Assembly: GCA_913055625.1 (NCBI GenBank)
Contig: CAJXJW010000010.1
Location: forward strand, 1 to 64,000
DNA: 64,000 nucleotides
Source of the DNA: an uncultured Pseudomonadota bacterium
GTDB taxonomy: Bacteria; Pseudomonadota; Gammaproteobacteria; Steroidobacterales; Woeseiaceae
Reading direction: 5' to 3'
The notes under the pieces were generated by a model. It ran no database searches. It was given only the letters and a program-made list of their open reading frames with translations, and had not been told where the DNA came from. Made by a program: the position numbers and the translations under genes. Numbering within the stretch: the stretch's first letter is position 1; every line of letters starts with the position of its first letter. Below are positions 10,408-22,677 of the stretch, one piece after another.

Positions 10408-12180
10408 TCAGTCGCCGGCGGCGGCGTCGATATAGCGATCGATGGCCGCGCCGAGCATCTCGAGGGGCAGCGCACCGTTTTCCAGTATGGCGTCGTGGAA
10501 GGCGCGCAGGTCGAAGCGATCCCGGAGCAAGGCCTCGGCCTCCCGGCGCAATCGCCAGATCTCGAGTTCCCCCAGCTTGTAGGCGAGCGCCTGGCCGGGC
10601 CACGAAATGTAGCGATCCACTTCGGCGCGTATATTTCCCTGCGACAGCGACGTATTCGATGCCATGAAGTCCATCGCCTGCTGGCGCGTCCATCCCTGGC
10701 TGTGCAGCCCCGTATCGATGACCAGTCGGCACGCGCGCCACATCTCGTAGCTCAACCGCCCGAACTGTTCGTAGGGCGTACGGTAGATGCCCATCTCGAC
10801 GCCGAGTTTCTCGCTGTACAGGGCCCAGCCCTCCCCAAACGCGCTGAAGTACAGGTCTTTGCGAAACTCGGGCACGTCCTGCATCTCTAGCGCCAGCGCG
10901 CTCTGGTGGTGGTGCCCCGGCACGGCTTCGTGCAACGTGAGCGCGGGCAACTCGTACAACGGCCGCTGGTCGAGCGCGTAGGTATTGATCCAGAACGCAC
11001 CGCCATGATCACCGCCCGGCGGCGCGCCGTAGTACGCCCCGGTGGTGTAATTTGGCGCAATCTCGTCGGGCACCGGCACGATGCCGTAGCTCTGCCGCGG
11101 CAACTTGCCGAAGTAGCCCGGCATGACGTAGTCGATGCGCTTCGCCACCCAGGCGGCTTCCTTCAGGAGCTGCTCGGGGCTGTCGGCGTAGAACTGCGGG
11201 TCGGTCCGCAGGAACGCCGCGAAATCCGCGAAATCGCCGTCGAAGCCGAGATCGTCGATGATCGCCTGCATTTCGGCGCGGATACGCGCGACCTCGTCGA
11301 GGCCGACCTGGTGTATCTCCGCGGCCGTGGTGCCCGTCAGTGTCGTGTAGCGCCTGATCTGGAACGCGTAGTACGCCTTGCCGCCCGGTAGCGCCTCCGC
11401 GCCGAGCGACGCCGACGCGCCGTAGTCGCCGTCGAGAAAATCGGCAACACGTGCAAACGCGGGCATCACCTCGCCGGCGATGACCTTCCTTGCGTCTTCT
11501 CGCAGTGCCGCCTGGCGTGCCGGCGGCACCCGCTCGCTCATCGACTCGAACGGGTCGTAGAAGCTGCTGTCGGCCGGGTCGTCCTTGACCTGCGCCCGCA
11601 GCGTCGGCAGGACGCCGTCGATGACGATGCGCGGCAGCACGAACGCTTCGTGGTCGCCGCGCCGCATGTTCGCGATATTCTCGTCGAAATAGCGTGGAAT
11701 GTCGCGAAGGCGCGCCAGGTAGTCGACGTAGTCCGCCTCGTTCTCCATGCGCACGCCGTTGCTGGCTGTCAACGCATTCATGAAAAAGCCGGAGAACGTG
11801 TTGAACGGTATGCGCGCCAGGTCGAGTTCGTAGGCCCCGATCGAATCGTCGAGTATCCAGGCGAAGACATCCGCGTTGACCCGCCCGGCCTCGCTCAGGC
11901 GGTCGCGATCGATGTCGGCCAGCCTGGCCCGGAAACCGCGCTCCCGGGCCAGGCGACGGGCGTCATCCGCCGGCGTCGCCCCGGGCAGGCGGTCATTCCC
12001 GCGTTTGAGACCGACACGTGTCGCCAGCAGCGGGTCTTCCTGCAGGCTGTACTCCCAGTGTTCCGCCATCAATGCGTCGAGCACGGCGTCGCCGGCCTCG
12101 TCGCCGGCCGGCCATGCGTTCGACGCGACGGCCAGGGCCGCCAGGACGACGGCCCCGCCCGCGCGAATGCGTCCCGGCAT
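10408..12180 (-). CDS. DUF885 family exported protein with HExxPGH zinc motif
   Basis: A 590-residue protein with an N-terminal signal peptide (hydrophobic GGAVVLAALAVASNAWPAG), so it is probably periplasmic. It matches the DUF885 family by its LTLHEAVPGHHHQ motif near residue 415 and the downstream FGEGWALYSEKLG, which together resemble a metallopeptidase HExxxH...E site. Family function is unproven; a zinc peptidase role is inferred. The start codon overlaps the TGA of the M28 peptidase gene (TGATG), so the two are probably co-transcribed and translationally coupled. Both look like exported peptide-degrading enzymes. Confidence 0.88.
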   Translation of the reverse strand: MPGRIRAGGAVVLAALAVASNAWPAGDEAGDAVLDALMAEHWEYSLQEDPLLATRVGLKRGNDRLPGATPADDARRLARERGFRARLADIDRDRLSEAGRVNADVFAWILDDSIGAYELDLARIPFNTFSGFFMNALTASNGVRMENEADYVDYLARLRDIPRYFDENIANMRRGDHEAFVLPRIVIDGVLPTLRAQVKDDPADSSFYDPFESMSERVPPARQAALREDARKVIAGEVMPAFARVADFLDGDYGASASLGAEALPGGKAYYAFQIRRYTTLTGTTAAEIHQVGLDEVARIRAEMQAIIDDLGFDGDFADFAAFLRTDPQFYADSPEQLLKEAAWVAKRIDYVMPGYFGKLPRQSYGIVPVPDEIAPNYTTGAYYGAPPGGDHGGAFWINTYALDQRPLYELPALTLHEAVPGHHHQSALALEMQDVPEFRKDLYFSAFGEGWALYSEKLGVEMGIYRTPYEQFGRLSYEMWRACRLVIDTGLHSQGWTRQQAMDFMASNTSLSQGNIRAEVDRYISWPGQALAYKLGELEIWRLRREAEALLRDRFDLRAFHDAILENGALPLEMLGAAIDRYIDAAAGD

Positions 12181-13895
12181 CACTCCGACGCAGCCTCGAT
12201 GGCCGCCTTCCGGGCCGCCTCGAATTCGTCACCCGGCGCCCACTGCGGCATCTCGTCCGCGTTGGCGATCGCGAGCCCGGTCCAGAAGCCGAGTTGCGCG
12301 TCGGCAATCATGCCGTCGAAGTTCCAGGAGTCGTCGTACTCGTCGCTGGGCTGGTGGTAATTCACGTCGGTGTAGTGATCGACCTGTTCCCGGCCCCACT
12401 CCGGCGGCCGGTCGACGAAGTCGGTACCGGTGTCCAGGTACATCGCCGGTACGCCGATCTTCGCGAAGCTGAACTGGTCGGACCGGTAGAAATAACCACG
12501 ATCCGCGAACTGGTCAGGCTTGACCACCCGGCCCTGCTCCTTCGCGATCATCGTCACGATATCGTCAATGGACGACTTGCCGAGGCCGATATAGGTCACG
12601 TCGTGCGTGTGGCCCCAGATGTTGCCGCCGTCGTAGTTCAGGTTGGCGGCGATCTTGCCCGGCGGGAACGTCGGGTTCGCTGCGTACCATTTCGAACCCA
12701 GCAGGCCCTGCTCCTCCGCACCGACGAGCGCTATTACGATCGACCGGCGCGGTGCCTCGGGCAGTTCTTTCAGGGCCTTCGCGATGGCCAGGACCTGGGC
12801 CACGCCGGACGCGTTGTCCATCGCGCCGTTGTAGATCGCATCGCCCTCCTCGTTCGGCGTGCCGATGCCGAGGTGGTCGTGATGCGCGGTGTAGATGACC
12901 GCCTCGTCACTGAGCGCCGGATCGCTGCCCGGAATGACGCCGAGTACGTTCGCGGACGCAACGCGGCGAACCTCGACGTCCATCGACAACGACGTCGTGA
13001 TGCCGAGCGGCACCGGCTCGAAGTCGCGGTTGTAGGCGGCCTCGCGAAGCGCGTCGAGGTCGAAGCCGCCCATCGCGATCAGGTCACGCGCGGTGTCTTC
13101 GGTCAGCCAGGCCATGACCTGGTTGCGCGGCTCGTCGCCGGCCGGCAGTTCGAACTGCTCGCCCGTCCACGATGTCTGCACGACCTGGAACGGGTAGCCG
13201 GCGGACGGCTGCGTGTGGATGATGATGGCGCCGACGGCGCCCTGGCGCGCGGCACTGAGGTACTTGTAATCCCAGCGCCCGTACCAGAGCCGCGTTTCGC
13301 CGGCGAACAGTTCGGGATCCCAGTCCGGGTCGTTGTTCATGATGACGAGGATCTTGCCGCGCAAATCCGCGTCCTTGAAGTCGTCCCAGTCGTATTCCGG
13401 CGCCTGGATGCCGTAGCCCACGAACACCAGTTCGGCGTCCTCGACCGATGCCTGTTCCGCCTGCACGCCGCTGTGGACAATGTACTGGTCCCATTGCTTC
13501 AGCGTCATCGAGTCGTCGTCGGTCTCGAAGGTCCACGTCGGCGGCTGCTCGGCCGTGATGCCGACAAGATCGAACGGCTGCTCCCAGCTGCCGTCGGCCG
13601 CGCCGGGCTCGATGCCGAGTTCCGCCATGCGCTCGGCCAGGTACTTGCGGGCTTTCTCGTCGCCGGCACTCCCGGGACCGCGGCCCTCGTACGCGTCGCT
13701 CGATATCTCGACGATAATGTCGCGCATGAAGTCCGCGGCGATTCCGGCCGCCGCGGCCTCGGCAGCCGAGGCGTCGGCGGCCGAGGCGTCGACCGGTACG
13801 TCCGCCGACTCCATGGCCGGTGCCGGTTCGTCCCGGCCGCAGCCCGCGAGCGCAAGCGAAGTGAGGATGATCAGGGCATAAATTCGTTGGTGCAC
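12180..13895 (-). CDS. M28 family metallopeptidase, predicted lipoprotein
   Basis: A protein of 571 residues starting at a GTG with GGAGAAAGG upstream. The N-terminus is a lipoprotein signal (IYALIILTSLALAGC), followed by a Ser/Ala/Asp-rich linker. The catalytic domain has the M28 aminopeptidase zinc ligands: TAHHDHLG (near 335), DNASG (near 360), GAEEQG (near 392) and a late HQPSDEY (near 516). A protease-associated (PA) type insert precedes it. It probably trims peptides in the periplasm or at the outer membrane. It is the first gene of a two-gene unit with the DUF885 gene, with a one-base stop/start overlap. Confidence 0.92.
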   Translation of the reverse strand: MHQRIYALIILTSLALAGCGRDEPAPAMESADVPVDASAADASAAEAAAAGIAADFMRDIIVEISSDAYEGRGPGSAGDEKARKYLAERMAELGIEPGAADGSWEQPFDLVGITAEQPPTWTFETDDDSMTLKQWDQYIVHSGVQAEQASVEDAELVFVGYGIQAPEYDWDDFKDADLRGKILVIMNNDPDWDPELFAGETRLWYGRWDYKYLSAARQGAVGAIIIHTQPSAGYPFQVVQTSWTGEQFELPAGDEPRNQVMAWLTEDTARDLIAMGGFDLDALREAAYNRDFEPVPLGITTSLSMDVEVRRVASANVLGVIPGSDPALSDEAVIYTAHHDHLGIGTPNEEGDAIYNGAMDNASGVAQVLAIAKALKELPEAPRRSIVIALVGAEEQGLLGSKWYAANPTFPPGKIAANLNYDGGNIWGHTHDVTYIGLGKSSIDDIVTMIAKEQGRVVKPDQFADRGYFYRSDQFSFAKIGVPAMYLDTGTDFVDRPPEWGREQVDHYTDVNYHQPSDEYDDSWNFDGMIADAQLGFWTGLAIANADEMPQWAPGDEFEAARKAAIEAASE

Positions 13896-14125
13896 GTGCC
13901 TTTCTCCACGGTTGGCGATCGACCGGCTTCGTCGCCGGTACAGAGTCAAAGACCGTCTGAACGCCGAACAGTTCGGCGAGAGGTGCCGTCAGGGACGTCC
14001 AGGACCGGCAATCGGCGATCGCATTACTGATCGGCCCGGCGCTTGCCTCGTTGGCCACCGGGTCCGCAAAGGCATGCAGCGTATTACCACGGGCGTGAAT
14101 TTGCCAGCCCGGCCGCGACCTCGCC

Positions 14126-15397
14126 TCAGAGGGACACGACGTCCGGGCGCGCCAGCGGCTTGACGAGGTGCATTTGCACGTTGCCGATCGCACGTTCGAT
14201 GAACGCGCCCTCGCAATAGCAAAGGTAGTAGAGCCACATGCGTATGAACTCCTCGCCGAAGCCCATCGCGCGTACCTCGTCCAGGCGCGCGGAGAAGCGT
14301 TCGCGCCATACCCGCAGCGTCTGCGCGTAGTGCGGACCGATGTCCTCGAGGTGCACGACCCGCATGTCCGTCCCGCGGGTCAGCATGTCCGTCATCGATG
14401 TCACCGACGTCAGGCAGCCGCCCGGGAACACGTAGCGGCGGATGAAGTCCACGCTGCCGACGTAGGCGTCGAAGTGCTGATCCGCAATCGTGATCGACTG
14501 CAGCAGCATCTGCCCGTGCGGGTGCAGCAGTTCGCTGCAACGGCTGAAGAACCTGGCCTGGTACTCGTGACCTACGGCCTCGATCATCTCGATCGACACG
14601 ATCTTGTCGTATTTTCCGGCCAGGTCGCGATAGTCCTTCTGCAGCACCTCGACGCGGTCGTCCAGGCACTCCTTGCGCACTCGCTCCTTCGCGTACGCGT
14701 ACTGCTCTTCGGAGATCGTCGTCGTGGTCACGTGACAGCCGTAGTGCTTTGCCGCGTACACCGCGAAACCGCCCCAGCCGGTCCCGATCTCGAGAACCCG
14801 GTCGCCCGGTTGCAGCGCAAGCTTGCGGCACACGCGATCGAGCTTGGCGAGCGATGCCTCCTCGAGCGTCATGTCGGGGCGCTCGAACACCGCGCTGGAA
14901 TACATCATCGTGCGGTCGAGCCACAGCGAGTAGAAGTCGTTGCCGAGGTCGTAGTGCGCCGCGATGTTTCGCTTGCTGCCGCTGCGCGTGTTCCGGTTCG
15001 CACGATGCAGGAACCTCTGGACCGGGCGCGTCAGCAGGGCGGCGCCGCGGTTCATGTCATTGAGCACATCGCGATTGCGCAGGAGGATCCGCACGAGGCT
15101 GGTCAGCTCGTCGCACGACCAGAGACCCTGGATCCAGGCTTCCGCGGCGCCGATCGGCCCGCCGAACGCGACCTCGCTGAAGAACGCGGGATCGTGGATG
15201 GTCAGCAACGTGGTGAGCGGCATGTCGTCGGTCAGGTCGCCGAATGCTTCGTGGCGTCCCTGCTCGCTGATCACGATCTGCCCGTTGCGCACGCGTTCGA
15301 GGCGCGCACGCACCGCGCGCCGTGCAAACTGGTCGAAGCCCGAAGGCTTGCGGCCGCTCTCGAGAAACTCGCTCGATCCTACCGACAGTGTCTTCAT
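14126..15397 (-). CDS. cfa: Cyclopropane-fatty-acyl-phospholipid synthase family methyltransferase
   Basis: A 423-residue SAM-dependent enzyme that adds a methylene or methyl group to unsaturated acyl chains of membrane phospholipids. It has the full COG2230 architecture: an N-terminal lipid-binding part (LLTIHDPAFFSEVAFGGPIG...AWIQGLW), then AAHYDLGNDFYSLWLD, the SAM loop VLEIGTGWGGFAVYAA near residue 200, the substrate region SIEMIEAVGHEY and the C-terminal helix EEFIRMWLYYLCYCEGAF. It is the last gene of the eight-gene minus-strand operon that starts at 20976. The ATG lies 11 bases after the DUF1365 stop; no strong ribosome binding site is visible. Confidence 0.92.
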   Translation of the reverse strand: MKTLSVGSSEFLESGRKPSGFDQFARRAVRARLERVRNGQIVISEQGRHEAFGDLTDDMPLTTLLTIHDPAFFSEVAFGGPIGAAEAWIQGLWSCDELTSLVRILLRNRDVLNDMNRGAALLTRPVQRFLHRANRNTRSGSKRNIAAHYDLGNDFYSLWLDRTMMYSSAVFERPDMTLEEASLAKLDRVCRKLALQPGDRVLEIGTGWGGFAVYAAKHYGCHVTTTTISEEQYAYAKERVRKECLDDRVEVLQKDYRDLAGKYDKIVSIEMIEAVGHEYQARFFSRCSELLHPHGQMLLQSITIADQHFDAYVGSVDFIRRYVFPGGCLTSVTSMTDMLTRGTDMRVVHLEDIGPHYAQTLRVWRERFSARLDEVRAMGFGEEFIRMWLYYLCYCEGAFIERAIGNVQMHLVKPLARPDVVSL

Positions 15398-15408
15398 TGG
15401 TTGACGTA

Positions 15409-16185
15409 CTAACGTGACGAAACTGCGATCTTCTGTCGCTTGTTCGGGTGCTCATGCACCGGGCATTTCTTCAGCCACAGGCGCAATGCCTGCCAGTGAA
15501 TCGCGACGATGATCCGGGCCGTCATGAACGGATACCGGACCAGCGTCCGTGCCAGCGACGCCGCGCCGATGTCGACCCGTCGCATCGCGACGGAGGCGCC
15601 GAAGACACGTTTTCCCTTATGCAAACTGGTCATATGGATGACCAGTCGATGCCCGGGATCAGTAAAGCACCAATCATATTGCATGTCCATTGGCATGAAC
15701 GGCGACACGTGCAGGGCCTTGGCGTCGCGGAATCGCTGCGCGTTGCCGCGTTGTTCCGCGCGACTGGCGGGCAGCACGTAGGCCGCCCGTTCACCCCAAG
15801 GCGTGTTCGTCACGTCCGCGACGATGGTTTCCACGCGGCGGCCGGATGCATCGAAGCAGTAGTAGTGCGTCACCGGGTTGAAGCAATAGCCGAAATAGCT
15901 GAGGTTCGTCAGCATCCGTACGGGCCCGGTCGGGCGTCGGCCCGTACGTTGCTCGACGAGGTCGCGCACGGACGCGTCGAGCGGCTGGTCTTGCGGTCCG
16001 AGGTAGTTTTCCCGGCGAAAGCGCGCCGGTGCCGCGCGGCTTGTCGACCAGAACCAGCGCCCGTCGAAGACCTCGTCCAGTTCGTCGAGGTCCAGGTACA
16101 TCATGAATACGCGATAGTCGAACCGGTGCGGCACCGGTTCCGACCGCGCGTGCCTAACCCGCCCTTCGTAGATGCAACTCTGCAT
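15409..16185 (-). CDS. DUF1365 (COG3496) family protein
   Basis: A 258-residue protein of the DUF1365 family, recognised from SCIYEGRVRHAR near the start, HRFDYRVFMMYLDLDEL, and the hallmark SYFGYCFNPVTHYYCFD. The function is unproven. The family is found almost invariably beside a COG2907 flavoprotein and a CFA-type methyltransferase, exactly as here, so a role in modifying unsaturated membrane acyl chains is inferred. Its start lies inside the end of the flavoprotein gene (32-base overlap), implying translational coupling. A C-terminal hydrophobic stretch (TARIIVAIHWQALRLWLKK) may attach it to the membrane. Confidence 0.9.
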   Translation of the reverse strand: MQSCIYEGRVRHARSEPVPHRFDYRVFMMYLDLDELDEVFDGRWFWSTSRAAPARFRRENYLGPQDQPLDASVRDLVEQRTGRRPTGPVRMLTNLSYFGYCFNPVTHYYCFDASGRRVETIVADVTNTPWGERAAYVLPASRAEQRGNAQRFRDAKALHVSPFMPMDMQYDWCFTDPGHRLVIHMTSLHKGKRVFGASVAMRRVDIGAASLARTLVRYPFMTARIIVAIHWQALRLWLKKCPVHEHPNKRQKIAVSSR

Positions 16186-17449
16186 GGGAGAACCGTTGAT
16201 TGAAGTGAGACAGCGCGTCGAGCGCGCTGACGACGCCGTCTTCGTGAAATCCGTTGCGCCAGTAGGCGCCGCAGTAGAACGTCCGGTCGACGTTCAGGTC
16301 GGCCTGGCGCTGCTGCGCAGCGAGCGCTTCTGTCGTGAAGACCGGGTGCTCGTAGTGAATCCGGCGCAGGACGCTCGCGGGGTCGATGCTCCCCTCGTGA
16401 TTCAGGGACACGCAGTACTGCCGGTCCGATTGAATGCCCTGCAGTATGTTCATGTTGTAGGTCACCGCGACATGCGCCTCCGGATCCCGCGGAAGGTGGT
16501 AGTTCCACGCCGCCCACGCGCGGCGGCGCTTCGGCATCACGGACGCATCGGTATGCAGGATCGCAACATTGTCCTGGTAGCGGATCGCCCCGAGCACCTC
16601 GGCTTCGGCCGTTGTCGGGTCGGCCAGCAGGGACAGCGCCTGGTCGCTGTGGCAGGCCATGAACACCGCGTCGAAGCGTTCGCGTCCTGCCGCGTCGGTA
16701 AACACGTCGACGCCATCGGGTTGCCGCCGGATCTTGCGGACCGGCGTGCGCAGGCGGATGCGGTCGCGATGATCGCGGACCATGCGCCGGACGTACTCCC
16801 TCGATCCGCCGGTGATGACCCGCCAGACGGGACGCTCTCGCAGCCGGAGCAGCCCGTGGTTCTCGAAAAAACCCACGAGGAAGCGTATTGGCATGCGCTG
16901 GATCGCGACCGGCTCCGACGACCAGATCGCCGCGGCCATCGGGACGAGGTAGCAGTCGAGGAACTCCCGGCTGTACCCGTGCCGGACCAGGTAGCGACCG
17001 ACGGTCTGCGTCTTGTCCTCCCGGCTGAGACTCGCGACCGCGGACCGGTTGAAGCGCAATATGTCGCGCACCATCCGGTAGAACGGCGGCCGCAGGATGT
17101 TCCGGCGCTGCGCGAACAGCGCGTTCAGGTTCGCCCCGTTGTACTCGAGCCGGCCGTCGAACGCCTGGACACTGAAGCTCATGACGCTCTTTTGGGACGG
17201 TTGCCCGAGCTCGTCCAGCAACTTGTTGAACTCGGGGTAGGTATGGTCGTTGAAGACGATGAAGCCCGTGTCGACCGGGATCACCCGGCCGCCGTCATCG
17301 ACGTCGACGGTGTTCGTGTGCCCGCCGATGTGCGCCCCGGCCTCGAAGACCGTGATGTCGCAGCGCTCGCGCAGCCGGTACGCCGCCATGTTGCCGGCAA
17401 TGCCGGTGCCGACGATGGCAACCCGCGGGCGTCGCTCGCTCGTCACCAT
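16154..17449 (-). CDS. COG2907-type FAD-dependent oxidoreductase (amine-oxidase fold)
   Basis: A 431-residue flavoprotein. The dinucleotide fold VAIVGTGIAGNMAAYRL is at residues 10-26, followed by FEAGAHIGGHTNTV. The family marker IPVDTGFIVFNDHTYPEF is clear, and the C-terminal FAD-binding strand reads FYCGAYWRNGFHEDGVVSAL. COG2907 proteins are annotated as NAD/FAD-binding proteins and cluster with DUF1365 and CFA synthases; oxidation or desaturation of a lipid substrate is an inference. It overlaps the lipocalin gene upstream by 7 bases and DUF1365 downstream by 32 bases, so it sits in the core of the operon. Confidence 0.9.
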   Translation of the reverse strand: MVTSERRPRVAIVGTGIAGNMAAYRLRERCDITVFEAGAHIGGHTNTVDVDDGGRVIPVDTGFIVFNDHTYPEFNKLLDELGQPSQKSVMSFSVQAFDGRLEYNGANLNALFAQRRNILRPPFYRMVRDILRFNRSAVASLSREDKTQTVGRYLVRHGYSREFLDCYLVPMAAAIWSSEPVAIQRMPIRFLVGFFENHGLLRLRERPVWRVITGGSREYVRRMVRDHRDRIRLRTPVRKIRRQPDGVDVFTDAAGRERFDAVFMACHSDQALSLLADPTTAEAEVLGAIRYQDNVAILHTDASVMPKRRRAWAAWNYHLPRDPEAHVAVTYNMNILQGIQSDRQYCVSLNHEGSIDPASVLRRIHYEHPVFTTEALAAQQRQADLNVDRTFYCGAYWRNGFHEDGVVSALDALSHFNQRFSHAELHLRRAG

Positions 17450-17970
17450 TGTTGCGGCACCTTCTGGACCTTCGACACGTCGTAGCCCAGTCCTTCGACG
17501 CGCTCGATCAGTTCCCGGTAGTCCGCCTCCGGGATCGACGGTGTGCGCGCCATGATCCAGACGTAGTCGCGCTTCTGCCGGCCGATGATCGTCCGCGTGT
17601 AGTCCCGGTCCAAGTGCACGATCCGGTAATCCGCCTTGACGGGCCAGACGAAGCGCATGCCCCAGGTCGCGTTGGTGTCCGTGTCGCGCACGAAGCCCTT
17701 CGGCGTGTAGGTCTTGAGCGGCCCGTCGAACCCGCCCTTGCGGAATGTGAACGTCGTCGCGATCGTCCCGTCCGGATTCAGCGCATAGTTCTCGACGGCG
17801 TTGTAGGCCTCCTTCTCGAGAAACGTCGGGATGTTCGCAATGACGTACCAGTCGCCCATGAAACGCTCGAGATCGACGTGGTCCACGGTATGCATATCGG
17901 GCCCCCTGCCGGCGCAGCCTGCAAGAAACAGGACGCCGATCGTGGTGAGTGTCGGGAAGATTCGGTTCAT
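17443..17970 (-). CDS. blc: Bacterial lipocalin, outer-membrane lipoprotein Blc family
   Basis: A 175-residue lipoprotein: signal peptide with lipobox LFLAGC (Cys near residue 19), then the lipocalin barrel with the first signature FMGDWYVIANIP and later KADYRIVHLDRDYTRTIIGR. Blc proteins bind lysophospholipids or fatty acids in the periplasm and are often stress-induced. In this operon the natural inference is handling of modified or damaged acyl chains. The start overlaps the DUF6134 stop (ATGA), and the end overlaps the flavoprotein start. Confidence 0.9.
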   Translation of the reverse strand: MNRIFPTLTTIGVLFLAGCAGRGPDMHTVDHVDLERFMGDWYVIANIPTFLEKEAYNAVENYALNPDGTIATTFTFRKGGFDGPLKTYTPKGFVRDTDTNATWGMRFVWPVKADYRIVHLDRDYTRTIIGRQKRDYVWIMARTPSIPEADYRELIERVEGLGYDVSKVQKVPQQW

Positions 17971-18599
17971 GACCTGACGTACCTCAGGACTCGGCCGCCT
18001 TTAACGACCGCCTCCAGGCCGAGCCATTGCTGCGTGGTCGAGTACCAGACGGCGATCCTGCGGTCACCGGCCTCGATGCGGTAGACGATCGCGGCGTCGG
18101 CACCGGGGTCCGCGACCGTGCGCTCGATACGCACGGTGACGAACTCGCCGGTTTGTGGATTCAACAGCCGCTCCTGTTCCAGCAGCGCCGGATCCCAGTA
18201 GGCGAACGACCGCACACAATCCGGCAGCGCCTCGGCGCGACCGGCAATCGTGAAACCGGAGTCCGTGCGTTCGCCGCTCACCGCCATGTGCTTGCCGTTC
18301 GTTCGCGTCGTGGCCTCGACGCTGACCAGGCAGTCGCCGCGCCAAACTTCCGTGTTCCGGTGCTCGTAGCGGTAAACCGGTATGGCGAGGAAACGCACGT
18401 CGAAATCCGCCTCGCTGCGCACGCGGGCCTCCCCCGGCGCAGTACTGGAGATCGTGTATTCGTGCGTACCGATGCGGCGCTCATCGAGATAGACGTCGAA
18501 CTCGAAGCGCTGCACCCCGGCATACGCGCCGGCCAGTCCGGCACCGGCCGACAATGCGGCAATGGCCGCAACACCCGCCGTGTAGCATTTTCTACGCAT
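17967..18599 (-). CDS. Exported DUF6134-like protein
   Basis: A 210-residue protein with a signal peptide (AAIAALSAGAGLAGAYA), so periplasmic or surface exposed. The mature part is a predicted beta-rich fold (FEFDVYLDERRIGTHEYTIS, VYRYEHRNTEVWRG). It resembles DUF6134 proteins, whose function is unknown; family assignment is from recall. A TTG one codon upstream is possible, but ATG 18599 is preferred. It overlaps the DUF1295 gene end by 8 bases and couples to blc downstream through ATGA. Its place between membrane-lipid genes suggests an envelope role. Confidence 0.72.
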   Translation of the reverse strand: MRRKCYTAGVAAIAALSAGAGLAGAYAGVQRFEFDVYLDERRIGTHEYTISSTAPGEARVRSEADFDVRFLAIPVYRYEHRNTEVWRGDCLVSVEATTRTNGKHMAVSGERTDSGFTIAGRAEALPDCVRSFAYWDPALLEQERLLNPQTGEFVTVRIERTVADPGADAAIVYRIEAGDRRIAVWYSTTQQWLGLEAVVKGGRVLRYVRS

Positions 18600-19386
18600 C
18601 AACCGCCCTCACCTGCTGCCGTGGGCCTGGAAAGAACGCATTCGTGGACGCGACGTATTCCGCGTAACCGGGCCGGCGGCTGCCGATCGACTTCTCGAGC
18701 AGCGCCACGCCCGACACCTTCAGCAACAGGAAGCTCATCAGCAGCGGCGACAGGATCGTCCACCAGCCGCCCGCTGCTACTGCAAACAGGTAGTACGCCC
18801 ACCAGATGCAGAAGTCACCGAAGTAGTTCGGATGGCGCGTGTACCGCCACAGGCCGGTATCGAGCACTTTCCCCCGGTTTGCCGGGTCATTGCGAAAGCG
18901 CGCAAGCTGCCAGTCGCCACCAGCTTCGAACACGAAGCCCACCAGCCACAACAGCGTCGCGACGAGGTCTATCCAGCCGAGGGCTGCGGCAGGCTGCGAT
19001 ATTGAAACCACGAGCGGCAACGCAATCAGCCACGCCAGTACGCCCTGGAGCCCAAAGACGATGTACAGGCTCTTCAGCGCAAACGGCTGATGCCGCTCGC
19101 GCATCTCGCGATAGCGGTAATCCTCGGGCTCGCCGAAACTGCGCACGAAAATGTGCAGCGACAAGCGCAGCGACCACAGCGTCAATAGCGCGAGTACCAG
19201 CACCGCGCGGTTACCGAGTTCATCGACGTACCAGCCGGCAACGAGTCCTGACACCAGGAAGAACAGCGACCACAGCCCATCGACAAAACCGACATCGCGC
19301 AGCAGGAGGCTCGCCAGCCAGGCCACCAGTGCGATGACGACGATAGCCGCCAGCGCCGACGCCCAGGGCGTAAAAATCGTGATCAC
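18592..19386 (-). CDS. DUF1295 / steroid 5-alpha-reductase-like membrane protein
   Basis: A protein of about 264 residues with at least six hydrophobic helices. The C-terminal signature TGLWRYTRHPNYFGDFCIWW is the DUF1295/isoprenylcysteine methyltransferase-like NADPH- or SAM-binding region, followed by LLEKSIGSRRPGYAEYV. Related enzymes reduce or methylate lipid-like substrates in the membrane. I chose the GTG at 19386, which overlaps the TGA of the DUF2878 gene (GTGA); the frame is open farther upstream, but that is the shadow of DUF2878. The substrate is unknown; a lipid role is inferred from the operon. Confidence 0.87.
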   Translation of the reverse strand: MITIFTPWASALAAIVVIALVAWLASLLLRDVGFVDGLWSLFFLVSGLVAGWYVDELGNRAVLVLALLTLWSLRLSLHIFVRSFGEPEDYRYREMRERHQPFALKSLYIVFGLQGVLAWLIALPLVVSISQPAAALGWIDLVATLLWLVGFVFEAGGDWQLARFRNDPANRGKVLDTGLWRYTRHPNYFGDFCIWWAYYLFAVAAGGWWTILSPLLMSFLLLKVSGVALLEKSIGSRRPGYAEYVASTNAFFPGPRQQVRAVDA

Positions 19387-19928
19387 GACGCTTTCCCCGG
19401 CAGCACCGCCTGTTCGGGCCGGAAACCGTCGAAGCGCCGGGCAAGCACGAAGAGCGCAGGCAGCATTGCGCCCCAGCCGATGGCCAGCGTCACCAGCGCC
19501 GCTGTCGGGTCGACCAGCGTGATGCCCCCGAGCTTTGCGCCGGCGACATAGCTCGCGGGACCGGCGACAAAGCCGAGTACAGCCGCCAGCGCCGTCCTGC
19601 CCCGCAGCCAGCGCAGTGACACGTTCAGCGTCGTCGCGAACAGCAGCCACATGCCGACGATCCAGTACGGCGCCACACCCGCGGCCAGCATCCCGGACGG
19701 GTACCGGACCCAGCCCGCCGCGACCAGGGCGCTGTCGAACACGGCACCCAGACCGCCACACGCGACGATCAGCATCAGCTCGCTCGATGGCCTGCGTGCG
19801 AGTCGCAGGTGCAGGGCAACGGCCACGAGCACCAGCAGCGGACCGAGCCACGGCATCTGGTTGGCGGCGCCGAGCACGGACGTGAACCAACCGGCCTGGA
19901 AGACGAGAAAATTCAGGAGCACGAGCAT
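19383..19928 (-). CDS. DUF2878 family membrane protein
   Basis: A 181-residue polytopic protein with about five hydrophobic segments (LLVLVAVALHL, IVACGGLGAVFDSALVAAGW, VAPYWIVGMWLLFATTLNVSL). It resembles DUF2878, a family with no known function that recurs beside CFA-type methyltransferases and DUF1295. The start is one base after the stop of the upstream methyltransferase gene, and its stop overlaps the next start (GTGA). It may be a membrane subunit for lipid modification; this is inference from context only. Confidence 0.8.
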   Translation of the reverse strand: MLVLLNFLVFQAGWFTSVLGAANQMPWLGPLLVLVAVALHLRLARRPSSELMLIVACGGLGAVFDSALVAAGWVRYPSGMLAAGVAPYWIVGMWLLFATTLNVSLRWLRGRTALAAVLGFVAGPASYVAGAKLGGITLVDPTAALVTLAIGWGAMLPALFVLARRFDGFRPEQAVLPGKAS

Positions 19929-19929
19929 G

Positions 19930-20976
19930 TCAGCCTTCGGACCGCTCGAAGAGGTAGTGACTCACGAACCACTCGCGGCCATCCTGCCAGGCGAACAGTT
20001 CGGCACACGCCATGAAGAACATGCGCCAGCGCATCCACCAGCGATCCGCGTCGTCCCCGTAGGTGTCACGGAGGATCGGCATCAGCCGCTCGCGGTTCGC
20101 ATCCATCTTCCGAAGCCACGCTTCGCTGGTCTGCGCATAGTGTCTGCCGTCCCAGCGCCAACTGTTTTCGATTCGAAGGTGCCGCGGAAAGCGCAACGGC
20201 AATTCAGCCGACGGCATGATGCCGCCGGAGAAGAAGTGCCGGCTCATCCAGTCGCCCGGTCCCCTGTCGATGAACTCGTAGGGCGTGCTGCGGTGCGTGA
20301 AGATGTGCATGAAGAAGCGCCCATCCGGCTGCAGCCAGCCGCGGATGCGACGGAACAGTTCCCGGTAGTTCCGCATGTGCTCGAACATCTCGACGGACAC
20401 GATGCGGTCGAAGCGCGCCGCCGGATCGAAGTCGTTCATATCAGCGACGCGCACGTCGACGTTGTCGAGGCCTCGCGCCGCGACCAACTCGAGGATTGCG
20501 GCTTGCTGAGATTGAGAATTGCTGACGGCAATGACCTCGCAGGCCGGGAAATGCTCGGCGATCCACAGCGTGAGCGAGCCCCAGCCGCATCCCAGGTCGA
20601 GAACGCGCATGCCGTTGGTGATGCCGGCACGGCGAACGGTCAACGCCAGCGCAGCCGCCTCCGCCTCGTCCAGCGATCCGACGTCGCCGCCCCAGTAGCC
20701 GCAGCTGTACTTGCGGTGCTCGCCGAGCACGGCCTCGAAGAACGCGGCAGGCACCTCGTAGTGTTGTTCATTGGCCAGGTCCGGCAGGAGCGCCACCGGC
20801 GACGCGTTCATCATGTCGACGAACACATTCGTCCGGTGTGCCGCAGCCTCCGGATTGTCAGCCTCGATCTCGTGGCGCTTGCGATCGAGCAGGCGCCGGA
20901 TGCCGCTACGGATAATCGCGTCGGGCACCATCCCGGCTTCAGTCCAGCTCAGCGCTCGCGCTGTCATGTCGGTCAT
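19930..20976 (-). CDS. Second CFA-family SAM methyltransferase (short form)
   Basis: A 348-residue COG2230-type methyltransferase that lacks the long N-terminal lipid-binding part of the other copy. Recognisable elements are NEQHYEVPAAFFEAVLG, YSCGYW, the SAM loop VLDLGCGWGSLTLWIA (near residue 124), SVEMFEHMRNYRELF and HRSTPYEF. This short subfamily differs from true cyclopropane synthases and may act on another lipid or acyl position. The start is ATG 20976, because AGGAGA lies six bases upstream; an in-frame TTG at 20982 is less likely. It is the promoter-proximal gene of the operon and is divergent from the photolyase gene. Confidence 0.87.
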   Translation of the reverse strand: MTDMTARALSWTEAGMVPDAIIRSGIRRLLDRKRHEIEADNPEAAAHRTNVFVDMMNASPVALLPDLANEQHYEVPAAFFEAVLGEHRKYSCGYWGGDVGSLDEAEAAALALTVRRAGITNGMRVLDLGCGWGSLTLWIAEHFPACEVIAVSNSQSQQAAILELVAARGLDNVDVRVADMNDFDPAARFDRIVSVEMFEHMRNYRELFRRIRGWLQPDGRFFMHIFTHRSTPYEFIDRGPGDWMSRHFFSGGIMPSAELPLRFPRHLRIENSWRWDGRHYAQTSEAWLRKMDANRERLMPILRDTYGDDADRWWMRWRMFFMACAELFAWQDGREWFVSHYLFERSEG

Positions 20977-21001
20977 TGCCAATCTCCTGAAACTGGGTGC
21001 A

Positions 21002-21051
21002 GCTTACAAAGCCCGTAAGCGGGCGCCTACGGTGGGAAATGCTTTGTTACA
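21002..21051 (-). promoter_or_regulatory. Possible ECF-type promoter and leader hairpin of the lipid operon
   Basis: In the 171-base gap shared with phr, the minus strand reads TGTAAC (21051-21046), 14 bases, then CGTA (21031-21028). This resembles ECF sigma promoters, but the spacing is short. A small stem-loop (GCTTAC/GTAAGC, 21002-21020) lies just downstream in the leader. No sigma or anti-sigma gene is in the window. Weak evidence. Confidence 0.25.
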
Positions 21052-21147
21052 TTCGCATACACACCGTCGAAATTGCGCGAAGTAGACTGCGGGTATGCCT
21101 TATCAGATTGACATCCGCAGCGTCCCGCAACCGGGCGGGGACGGCGC

Positions 21148-22623
21148 GTGAGCGCAACCGCCGTCGCCTGGTTCCGGCGGGATTTGCGGCTCGACGACAA
21201 TGCCGCACTCATCGAAGCCTCGGAGGACGGCCGTCCCATCGTGCCCGTGTACGTCCACGATGCCGAGCGCGCCGGCCGTGCCGCCGACTGGTGGTTGCAC
21301 CACAGCCTTTCTGCGTTGTCACGCGCGCTCGACAAGCGCGGTGCGCCACTTCTCATCCTGCGCGGCAAGGCGGCCGAAGTGCTACCGAAACTAACGGCAC
21401 TCGTCGAAGCAGGGTCGATCCACTACACCCGAGGTTACACCCCGGCGGCGCGCAGCGAGCAGGACGCGGTGGCCGGGAACGTTGGCGACGCCGCGATCGC
21501 GCACGACAGCTATTACCTGCAGCGGCCCGGCACGGTGCTGACCGCCGAGGAAACCCCGTACCGCGTTTTCACAGCTTTCTGGAAGAGCTGCGTCAGTCGG
21601 CCGGAGCGCGACCGGCCGGCCGCCGCCCCCGAAACCCTGCGGTCCTGCCCCTCCGCGACTCTCGAGAAGGTGAAGGCGGAATTGCCCGTGATGCCGCTGG
21701 ACGACCTCGGGCTGCTGCCGACATCGCCCGACTGGGCCGGCGGCCTCCGCGACAACTGGACGCCGGGCGAAGACGGCGCGCACGCGCGCCTCGACGCGTT
21801 TGCCGATAGCGCCGGCCGATACGCAAGCCGCCGGGATTTGCCAGGCGAGGACGGGACGTCGAAACTGTCCCCGCACCTGCACTTTGGCGAGATCAGCCCC
21901 CGCCAGGTCTGGCACCGCCTGCACGACAAGGTGCTGGCGGGCGAAGGCACCCGCGGTGCGGAAGCGTTCCTCCGGCAACTCTACTGGCGAGACTTCTGCG
22001 GACACCTCCTGTTCCACTTTCCCGATATGCCCACGAAGCCGCTGCGCGACGAGTTCGAGTCTTTCGGGTGGAAAGACGACACCGACGCACTGAACGCGTG
22101 GCAACGGGGACAATCCGGCATACCGCTCGTCGACGCCGGCATGCGGGAGCTGTGGACCACCGGCTGGATGCACAATCGCGTGCGCATGATCGTCGCGTCG
22201 TTCCTTGTGAAGAACCTTCTCGTGCCGTGGCAGCACGGCGCAGCGTGGTTTCTCGATACGCTCGTAGACGCCGACCTCGCGAACAACTCAGCCGGCTGGC
22301 AGTGGGTGGCCGGTTGCGGCACCGACGCGGCGCCGTACTTCAGGATCTTCAATCCGGTACTGCAGAGCCGCAAGTTCGATCCCGACGGTGACTATCTCCG
22401 CCGCTGGCTGCCGGAACTCGCGCGACTCCCAAACGCGAACCTGCATGCGCCGTGGTCGGCCGACAGCGCAACGCTGCACGACGCGAATATTACGCTCGGA
22501 AAAACCTACCCGAAGCCGATCGTCGACCTCGCCGACACCCGCCAGCGCGCGCTCGACGCGTATCAGGACATGCGCAGTTTGCTACAATCGCCTGCGGCCA
22601 GCCCCGGTAGCTCAGCAGGATAG
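21148..22623 (+). CDS. phrB: Deoxyribodipyrimidine photolyase (class I CPD photolyase)
   Basis: A 491-residue flavoenzyme that repairs UV-induced cyclobutane pyrimidine dimers using blue light. The N-terminal antenna domain starts AVAWFRRDLRLDDNAAL. The FAD/DNA domain contains KLSPHLHFGEISPRQVW, LRQLYWRDFCGH, GMRELWTTGWMHNRVRMI, FLVKNLLVPWQHGAAWFLD and the class I hallmark DADLANNSAGWQWVAGCGTDA. The start is GTG with GGGG upstream; an 18-codon frame (21095-21151) overlaps it by GTGA. The last 23 bases, encoding part of the final residues and the stop, are also the 5' part of tRNA-Arg. Divergence from the lipid operon suggests shared control by photo-oxidative stress. Confidence 0.95.
   Translation: MSATAVAWFRRDLRLDDNAALIEASEDGRPIVPVYVHDAERAGRAADWWLHHSLSALSRALDKRGAPLLILRGKAAEVLPKLTALVEAGSIHYTRGYTPAARSEQDAVAGNVGDAAIAHDSYYLQRPGTVLTAEETPYRVFTAFWKSCVSRPERDRPAAAPETLRSCPSATLEKVKAELPVMPLDDLGLLPTSPDWAGGLRDNWTPGEDGAHARLDAFADSAGRYASRRDLPGEDGTSKLSPHLHFGEISPRQVWHRLHDKVLAGEGTRGAEAFLRQLYWRDFCGHLLFHFPDMPTKPLRDEFESFGWKDDTDALNAWQRGQSGIPLVDAGMRELWTTGWMHNRVRMIVASFLVKNLLVPWQHGAAWFLDTLVDADLANNSAGWQWVAGCGTDAAPYFRIFNPVLQSRKFDPDGDYLRRWLPELARLPNANLHAPWSADSATLHDANITLGKTYPKPIVDLADTRQRALDAYQDMRSLLQSPAASPGSSAG
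22580..22588 (+). promoter_or_regulatory. Candidate extended -10 promoter of tRNA-Arg
   Basis: TGC plus TACAAT (22583-22588) ends 12 bases before the tRNA 5' end, predicting a leader of about six bases. It lies wholly inside the photolyase 3' codons. Confidence 0.5.
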
Positions 22624-22677
22624 AGCACCAGATTCCTAATCTGGGGGTCCCATGTTCGAATCATGGTCGGGGCGCCA
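22601..22677 (+). tRNA. tRNA-Arg (anticodon CCU)
   Basis: A 77-base cloverleaf. The acceptor GCCCCGG pairs with TCGGGGC, followed by discriminator G and encoded CCA (22675-22677). The D-arm is GCTC...GAGC. The anticodon arm CCAGA-TTCCTAA-TCTGG gives anticodon CCT, reading AGG. The T-arm CCATG-TTCGAAT-CATGG is perfect. The 5' 23 bases overlap the end of the photolyase gene; the TAG that stops that gene lies in the D-arm. Confidence 0.97.

Follow-up and report, generated by a model that had tools for sequence, protein, structure and literature searches.

The window analyzed here, a 64,000-nucleotide (nt) stretch of contig CAJXJW010000010.1 from an uncultured Woeseiaceae bacterium, contains an operon of eight minus-strand genes (positions 14126-20976) that probably equips membrane phospholipids with a rare, antioxidant fatty acid containing a methylated (most likely dimethylated) furan ring, with the assistance of helper proteins and under OmpR-type control. 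Gene families, clades, a promoter box, and co-occurrence were observed; what the enzymes act on and produce, the binding of the regulator, and the signal that induces the operon are inferred from them. The first-pass annotation of this DNA had suggested an unusual modified fatty acid, for example a furan fatty acid, and this is by far the best reading, because the UfaD, UfaO, and UfaM families are all present in the order of Rhodopseudomonas palustris RPA2571-2570-2569. The operon comprises the following genes.

19930..20976, minus strand: gene 1, fufM-like S-adenosylmethionine (SAM) methyltransferase, opening the operon and predicted to carry out the second furan-ring methylation (CMAS Pfam family; FufM clade, 100/100)
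19383..19928, minus strand: gene 2, DUF2878, small protein (Pfam PF11086, 148.7 bits)
18592..19386, minus strand: gene 3, DUF1295 membrane protein, predicted reductase partner of FufM of the type dependent on reduced nicotinamide adenine dinucleotide phosphate (NADPH) (steroid 5-alpha-reductase/sterol-reductase-like fold)
17967..18599, minus strand: gene 4, DUF6134 protein (Pfam PF19630, 144.1 bits)
17443..17970, minus strand: gene 5, Blc-type lipocalin, possible lipid carrier (Lipocalin_2, 142.5 bits)
16154..17449, minus strand: gene 6, ufaD-like flavin adenine dinucleotide (FAD) flavoprotein predicted to desaturate the methylated acyl chain (Amino_oxidase/NAD_binding_8; gene order ufaD-ufaO-ufaM)
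15409..16185, minus strand: gene 7, ufaO (DUF1365), predicted O2-dependent furan-forming enzyme (DUF1365, 274.7 bits against a cut-off of 25)
14126..15397, minus strand: gene 8, ufaM-like SAM methylase, not a typical cyclopropane fatty acid (CFA) synthase (CMAS, 307 bits; UfaM clade, 94/92)

All eight open reading frames (ORFs) were confirmed at the positions previously noted, and each has a best Pfam match over the curated cut-off (CMAS, DUF2878, DUF1295, DUF6134, Lipocalin_2, Amino_oxidase, DUF1365, and CMAS from gene 1 to gene 8). With the DUF1295 start set at GTG 19386 and not at 19389, where the codon is GTC, the intergenic distances from gene 1 to gene 8 are +1, -4, -8, -4, -7, -32, and +11 nt. 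The compact arrangement described in the first pass, with adjacent genes overlapping or spaced by no more than 11 nt and a divergent photolyase ORF (21148-22623, plus strand), was thus borne out, one of the overlaps being 32 nt long.

Genes 6 to 8 belong to the families of a published pathway in which UfaM is a SAM methylase, UfaD is an FAD flavoprotein desaturase resembling phytoene desaturases, and UfaO, a DUF1365 protein, is the O2-dependent furan former, the cofactor and reductant of which were called unknown (PMC7380195). Gene 6 matches Amino_oxidase (90 bits) and NAD_binding_8, and its HpnE/CrtD-type matches lie far under the cut-off. Gene 8 had been labeled a full-length CFA synthase; its membership of the CMAS family stands, but it is not a typical CFA synthase, because it does not reach the NCBIfam CFA cut-offs (for one of them, 277 bits against 400), falls among the UfaM-like rows that form one side of a tree branch with support 94/92, and lacks both of the Cfa histidines H240 and H266. 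These are replaced by Ala and Gln (A/Q) in 52/52 UfaM-like rows including the window, in which E239 and Y317 are retained. In a set of FufM loci made up of the best 80 of 568 relatives from a contig scan, A/Q was likewise found in 49 of 50 UfaM proteins, the remaining row being truncated. This putative residue signature of UfaM appears to be new relative to the open-access literature, as far as the searches go. UfaO (15409-16185) is predicted to be a calycin-like barrel with H12, R14, K156, S161, and P162 invariant in 51 rows, and its best fold matches, which are borderline, are polyketide spirocyclases and nitrobindin.

Gene 1 had been described as a short CFA-type methyltransferase. Its assignment to the CMAS family holds; its best relative in the PDB, however, is coclaurine N-methyltransferase, at 224 bits against 109 for CFA synthase, and it groups with FufM. 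In the tree, 37 FufM rows, including the window and four Rhodopseudomonas-like sequences, form a single clade (100/100), and a dimethyl furan fatty acid is therefore predicted. The window FufM is 50-51% identical to the two Rhodopseudomonas-like FufM proteins compared, against 26% for the window UfaM; the published FufM is identical to UfaM at only 26% of positions and to Arabidopsis LIME1 at 38%. The positions of Cfa H240 and H266 are kept as histidines in 37/37 FufM tree rows and in 79 of the 80 scan loci.

If the enzymes act like their published counterparts, a cis-unsaturated acyl chain would first be methylated by UfaM (gene 8) and then desaturated to a conjugated diene by UfaD (gene 6), after which UfaO (gene 7) could use O2 to close the furan ring and FufM (gene 1) may add the second ring methyl group. 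The lipocalin and the DUF6134 protein may serve as envelope lipid carriers, and DUF1295 could act as an NADPH-type membrane reductase on a furan-derived lipid, while an OmpR-family two-component system would drive transcription of the operon in the genus through a TGTA-N6-TGTAAC box.

The gene order methyltransferase-DUF2878-(DUF1295)-(DUF6134)-Blc-UfaD-UfaO-UfaM is repeated across the genus of the window, and all eight families occur in identical order in a member of the Methylophilaceae (L088), in Nitrospira (L102), and in a gammaproteobacterial metagenome-assembled genome (L116), with about 960 extra nt separating Blc from UfaD in L088 and L116. Because of this recurrence, the eight-gene arrangement is not due to chance; the eight-gene form and its same-order recurrence in Nitrospira and Methylophilaceae are, as far as the searches go, new relative to the open-access literature. 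Among the 80 FufM loci, for which neighbor counts are lower bounds because many flanks are truncated where the contig stops, 58 have any Ufa gene in the flank and 44 have UfaD, UfaO, and UfaM together; the other neighbors include lipocalin (21), DUF2878 (18), DUF2177 (15), ChrR (14), DUF6134 (13), and photolyase (10). A DUF1365 gene was found elsewhere in the genome for 21 of the 22 FufM loci lacking a Ufa gene, compared with 1 of 14 control genomes. Across 60 genomes (that of the window and its relatives), FufM and DUF1365 occur together in 31, FufM only in 8, DUF1365 only in 3 (G046, G047, and G059), and neither in 18 (Fisher p 1.3e-6, kinship ignored).

Furan clusters were also seen on Acinetobacter, Mesorhizobium, and Cupriavidus plasmids (L033, L060, L061, and L064), where they variously carry a photolyase/cryptochrome, a chalcone-isomerase-like protein, and differing regulators (ChrR, TetR, or a two-component pair). 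Three rhizobial clusters encode a small protein after FufM (L031:9023-9601, L060:9026-9610, and L063:9026-9625) that is weakly MASE7-like, above the cut-off in one of the three.

The first-pass count of at least three members of unknown function applies to DUF2878, DUF1295, DUF6134, and the lipocalin and not to DUF1365, which is the published furan enzyme UfaO. As read by eye, the N-terminus of the DUF6134 protein is hydrophobic and signal-peptide-like, and that of the lipocalin is lipobox-like (LAGC); the lipocalin scores 76 bits against PRK10477 Blc, under the cut-off of 267. In alphaproteobacterial loci L069, L072, L076, L080, and L081, three of them from Caulobacteraceae, DUF2177 directly follows FufM; DUF2177 and DUF2878 may stand in for each other as small partners. 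The most frequent association is that of DUF1295, which lies within 2 kb of FufM in 65 of the 80 loci from 12 phyla, on the same strand in 64 of these 65 and less than 150 nt away in 54. In the Bradyrhizobium family, where 57 of 198 genomes gave a match, DUF1295 directly precedes FufM in 10/10 inspected loci. As far as the searches go, this FufM-DUF1295 pair is new relative to the open-access literature.

DUF1295 matches the membrane 5-alpha-reductase/sterol reductase fold over its full length, which suggests that it may reduce oxidized furan lipids, the alternative considered for its activity being that of an ICMT-like SAM methyltransferase. A repair role would account for the facts that DUF1295 stands beside FufM in 12 phyla, belongs to a singlet-oxygen gene set of Chlamydomonas, and is not among the known synthesis enzymes. 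Singlet oxygen would open the furan to an electrophilic enedione, DUF1295 would use NADPH to reduce the C=C bond of the enedione, giving a saturated 1,4-dione, and the dione could re-close to the furan by dehydration (Paal-Knorr). That DUF1295 is such a repair enzyme, making furan fatty acids a renewable shield against singlet oxygen, is an unlikely proposal as it stands.

The intergenic region between fufM and the photolyase gene contains two features that may control the operon.

21046..21061, minus strand: direct-repeat box TGTATGCGAATGTAAC, predicted response-regulator site (TGTA-N6-TGTAAC across the genus operons)
20990..21045, minus strand: core promoter region, placed by aligning 25 upstream regions and reading them by eye (genus consensus TTGTTG, about 17 nt, TATATTG)

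The near end of the box lies 69 nt from the fufM start codon, and the promoter hexamers of the window itself are degenerate. The first pass had suggested looking for an ECF11/ChrR motif in the 20977-21147 gap; the gap carries instead this response-regulator-like direct repeat, which was found upstream of fufM in all 25 genus operons having upstream DNA, with the far end about 84-92 nt from the gene start. The pattern TGTANNNGNNTGTAAC is matched by 23 of the 25 genus boxes, L209 and L210 being off by one letter, and has a single match in the 3.63-Mb genome of the window, at 21046-21061 (0.01 expected per window). An OmpR-type regulator and/or a HAMP kinase is located in the same locus for 12/25 genus operons. 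In the window's own genome, a response regulator with a Trans_reg_C domain and a HAMP histidine kinase are encoded at C16:3144-5166, and among genomes G000-G023 an orthologue of the regulator (at least 80% identity) was found in 18/18 FufM-positive versus 1/6 FufM-negative genomes (Fisher 1.4e-4). Upstream of the regulator gene itself, TGTWTC direct repeats with the same 10-bp period occur in 10 of 13 loci and account for all 16 hits in 190 kb, the pattern having been chosen post hoc; the letters of these repeats differ from those of the TGTA-N6-TGTAAC box upstream of fufM. From these sequence patterns it is proposed that the operon in the genus is controlled by an OmpR-family two-component system through the box, and not by ECF11-ChrR. 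The candidate two-component box seems, as far as the searches go, to be new relative to the open-access literature.

The ECF11-ChrR circuit put forward in the first pass could not be upheld. A ChrR family gene shares the cluster in Rhizobium, Mesorhizobium, and Shinella plasmids and is near FufM in 14/80 loci, and, according to PMC6852236, the core sigmaE-ChrR regulon includes furan fatty acid genes. No ChrR, however, was found in the window's genome (3.63 Mb, 99.45% complete) by a search that was positive in the Caulobacter vibrioides control, ECF sigma factors not having been searched there, and another conserved box and regulator fit instead; membership of the operon in an ECF11 (RpoE)-ChrR singlet-oxygen regulon is accordingly highly improbable. 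The chance that a class II LitR/LOV light switch controls the operon, as in Pseudomonas, is equally slight. In PMC9758184, phrB and ufaM of P. mendocina, near a LitR gene, are light-induced 25-33-fold and LitR control is suggested. The LitR operator TGTACA-N12-TGTACA differs from the window box, a direct repeat with 10-bp spacing, and no LitR candidate was found in the window's genome by its B12-binding and MerR_1 domains, the class II LitR domain itself not having been searched: the B12-binding domain occurs only in two frames of more than 1,100 residues, and MerR_1 only in a 120-residue frame and as a weak partial match in a 261-residue frame.

Two other readings of the product were weighed. 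The operon would make cyclopropane lipids if gene 8 were an ordinary CFA synthase and gene 1 a second one, as might be supposed from the CMAS Pfam domain in both genes and from a Halomonas ufaM whose expression in E. coli was reported in PMC12089945 together with cyclic fatty acids. This is very unlikely, since the score, the missing histidines, and the UfaM grouping of gene 8 and the FufM clade of gene 1 all speak against it, and UfaD and UfaO would be left without a role. It is unlikely that the operon unites two merely co-regulated modules, FufM-DUF2878-(DUF1295)-DUF6134-Blc modifying another lipid and UfaD-UfaO-UfaM making the furan. Eight of the 39 FufM-positive genomes show no DUF1365, and three of these retain the first half of the operon and thereby indicate that it can stand alone. 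Against such a division are the presence of DUF1365 elsewhere in nearly all genomes in which the FufM locus lacked Ufa genes, the placement of the Rhodopseudomonas-like genes inside the FufM clade, and the activity of the published FufM, which methylates 9M5-FuFA, its methylation of 18:1 not being significant (PMC7380195).

Several observations nevertheless count against a furan operon under OmpR-type control. The eight FufM-positive genomes in which no DUF1365 match was found (G009, G013, G023, G026, G040, G042, G048, and G053) are 73-98% complete; the locus of G009, G013, and G023 is FufM-DUF2878-DUF6134-Blc without UfaD, UfaO, and UfaM, and the contigs of G026 and G053 end at the FufM locus. 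A FufM-like gene of Bradyrhizobium (L086) has Q/Q in place of both histidines and no partner gene nearby, DUF1295 included, and DUF1295 is present in just 12/27 genus operons. The position of RPA0924 in the FufM clade was established by proxy, R. palustris FufM being represented by four fufM genes from phototrophic Rhodopseudomonas-like genomes of 5.0-5.6 Mb in the Bradyrhizobium family. Our own hidden Markov models served to collect the UfaM and FufM rows, and the grouping of these rows is partly by construction, which does not apply to the residue pattern. As for regulation, the regulator of the window's genome sits on a separate contig (C16), the window box (TGTATG...) and core promoter are farther from the consensus than most, and a genome scan allowing two mismatches gave 32 hits versus 61 for the reversed control.

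The flanks of the operon contain a further feature.

21148..22623, plus strand: divergent photolyase (DNA_photolyase and FAD_binding_7)

A photolyase gene adjoins the operon in just 9 of the 25 genus loci having upstream DNA. A tRNA-Arg(CCT) gene (22601-22677, plus strand) shares 23 bases with the end of the photolyase ORF. In three relatives for which the search revealed no photolyase next to the operon (L044, L045, and L048), this tRNA is some 140-220 nt away from fufM, which gives the photolyase the look of a variable insert separating the tRNA from the operon. Downstream of the operon, genes for an M28 peptidase and a DUF885 protein follow on the same strand (10408-13949, minus strand).

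Earlier work has already described the furan enzymes and FufM, together with their connection to singlet oxygen through sigmaE-ChrR or to light through LitR. The present analysis shows that mono- and dimethyl furan fatty acid genes are kept together, as a single operon or cluster, in many phyla, frequently with DUF1295, a companion whose fold suggests a reductase unassigned in the open-access papers found. This link makes the fate of furan lipids after the absorption of singlet oxygen testable, and the candidate two-component box in place of ChrR suggests that one lipid response may be wired to different sensors.

Among known systems, the closest is the UfaM-UfaD-UfaO pathway of Rhodobacter sphaeroides and R. 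palustris RPA2569-2571 (Lemke et al. 2020, PMC7380195), with which the window shares three enzyme families and, in R. palustris, the order ufaD-ufaO-ufaM; in R. sphaeroides this pathway is tied to the singlet oxygen response. The window differs from it in having one eight-gene operon that adds fufM, DUF2878, DUF1295, DUF6134, and lipocalin genes, and in the lack of a ChrR in the genome. Whereas R. palustris FufM (RPA0924) is apart from ufaMDO by locus number, fufM opens the operon in the window. RPA0923, the gene deleted in an R. palustris CGA009 strain listed in PMC7380195, may be the DUF1295 gene, to judge from four Rhodopseudomonas-like genomes. The Pseudomonas LitR/PplR light cluster (phrB, a short-chain dehydrogenase/reductase, an FAD oxidoreductase, and ufaM), as described in PMC9758184, likewise places a photolyase beside the ufa cluster, but differs in regulator, operator, and helper genes. 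Families are also shared with the SAK1-dependent singlet oxygen genes CFA1, CFA2/CPLD27, DUF1365, DUF1295, and DUF2177 that are co-induced in Chlamydomonas (PMC4067076 Table 5), a eukaryote without an operon, in which that table assigns no furan function. DUF1295 has the fold and C-terminal motif of steroid 5-alpha-reductases and C14 sterol reductases (7c83, 7bw1, and 4quv), although the sequence similarity is weak. The CpxR box GTAAA-N5-6-GTAAA (PMC9600279) is, like the box of the window, an OmpR-family direct repeat with a period of about 10 bp, but its letters differ, and the description of the window's regulator as OmpR-type does not imply identity with CpxR.

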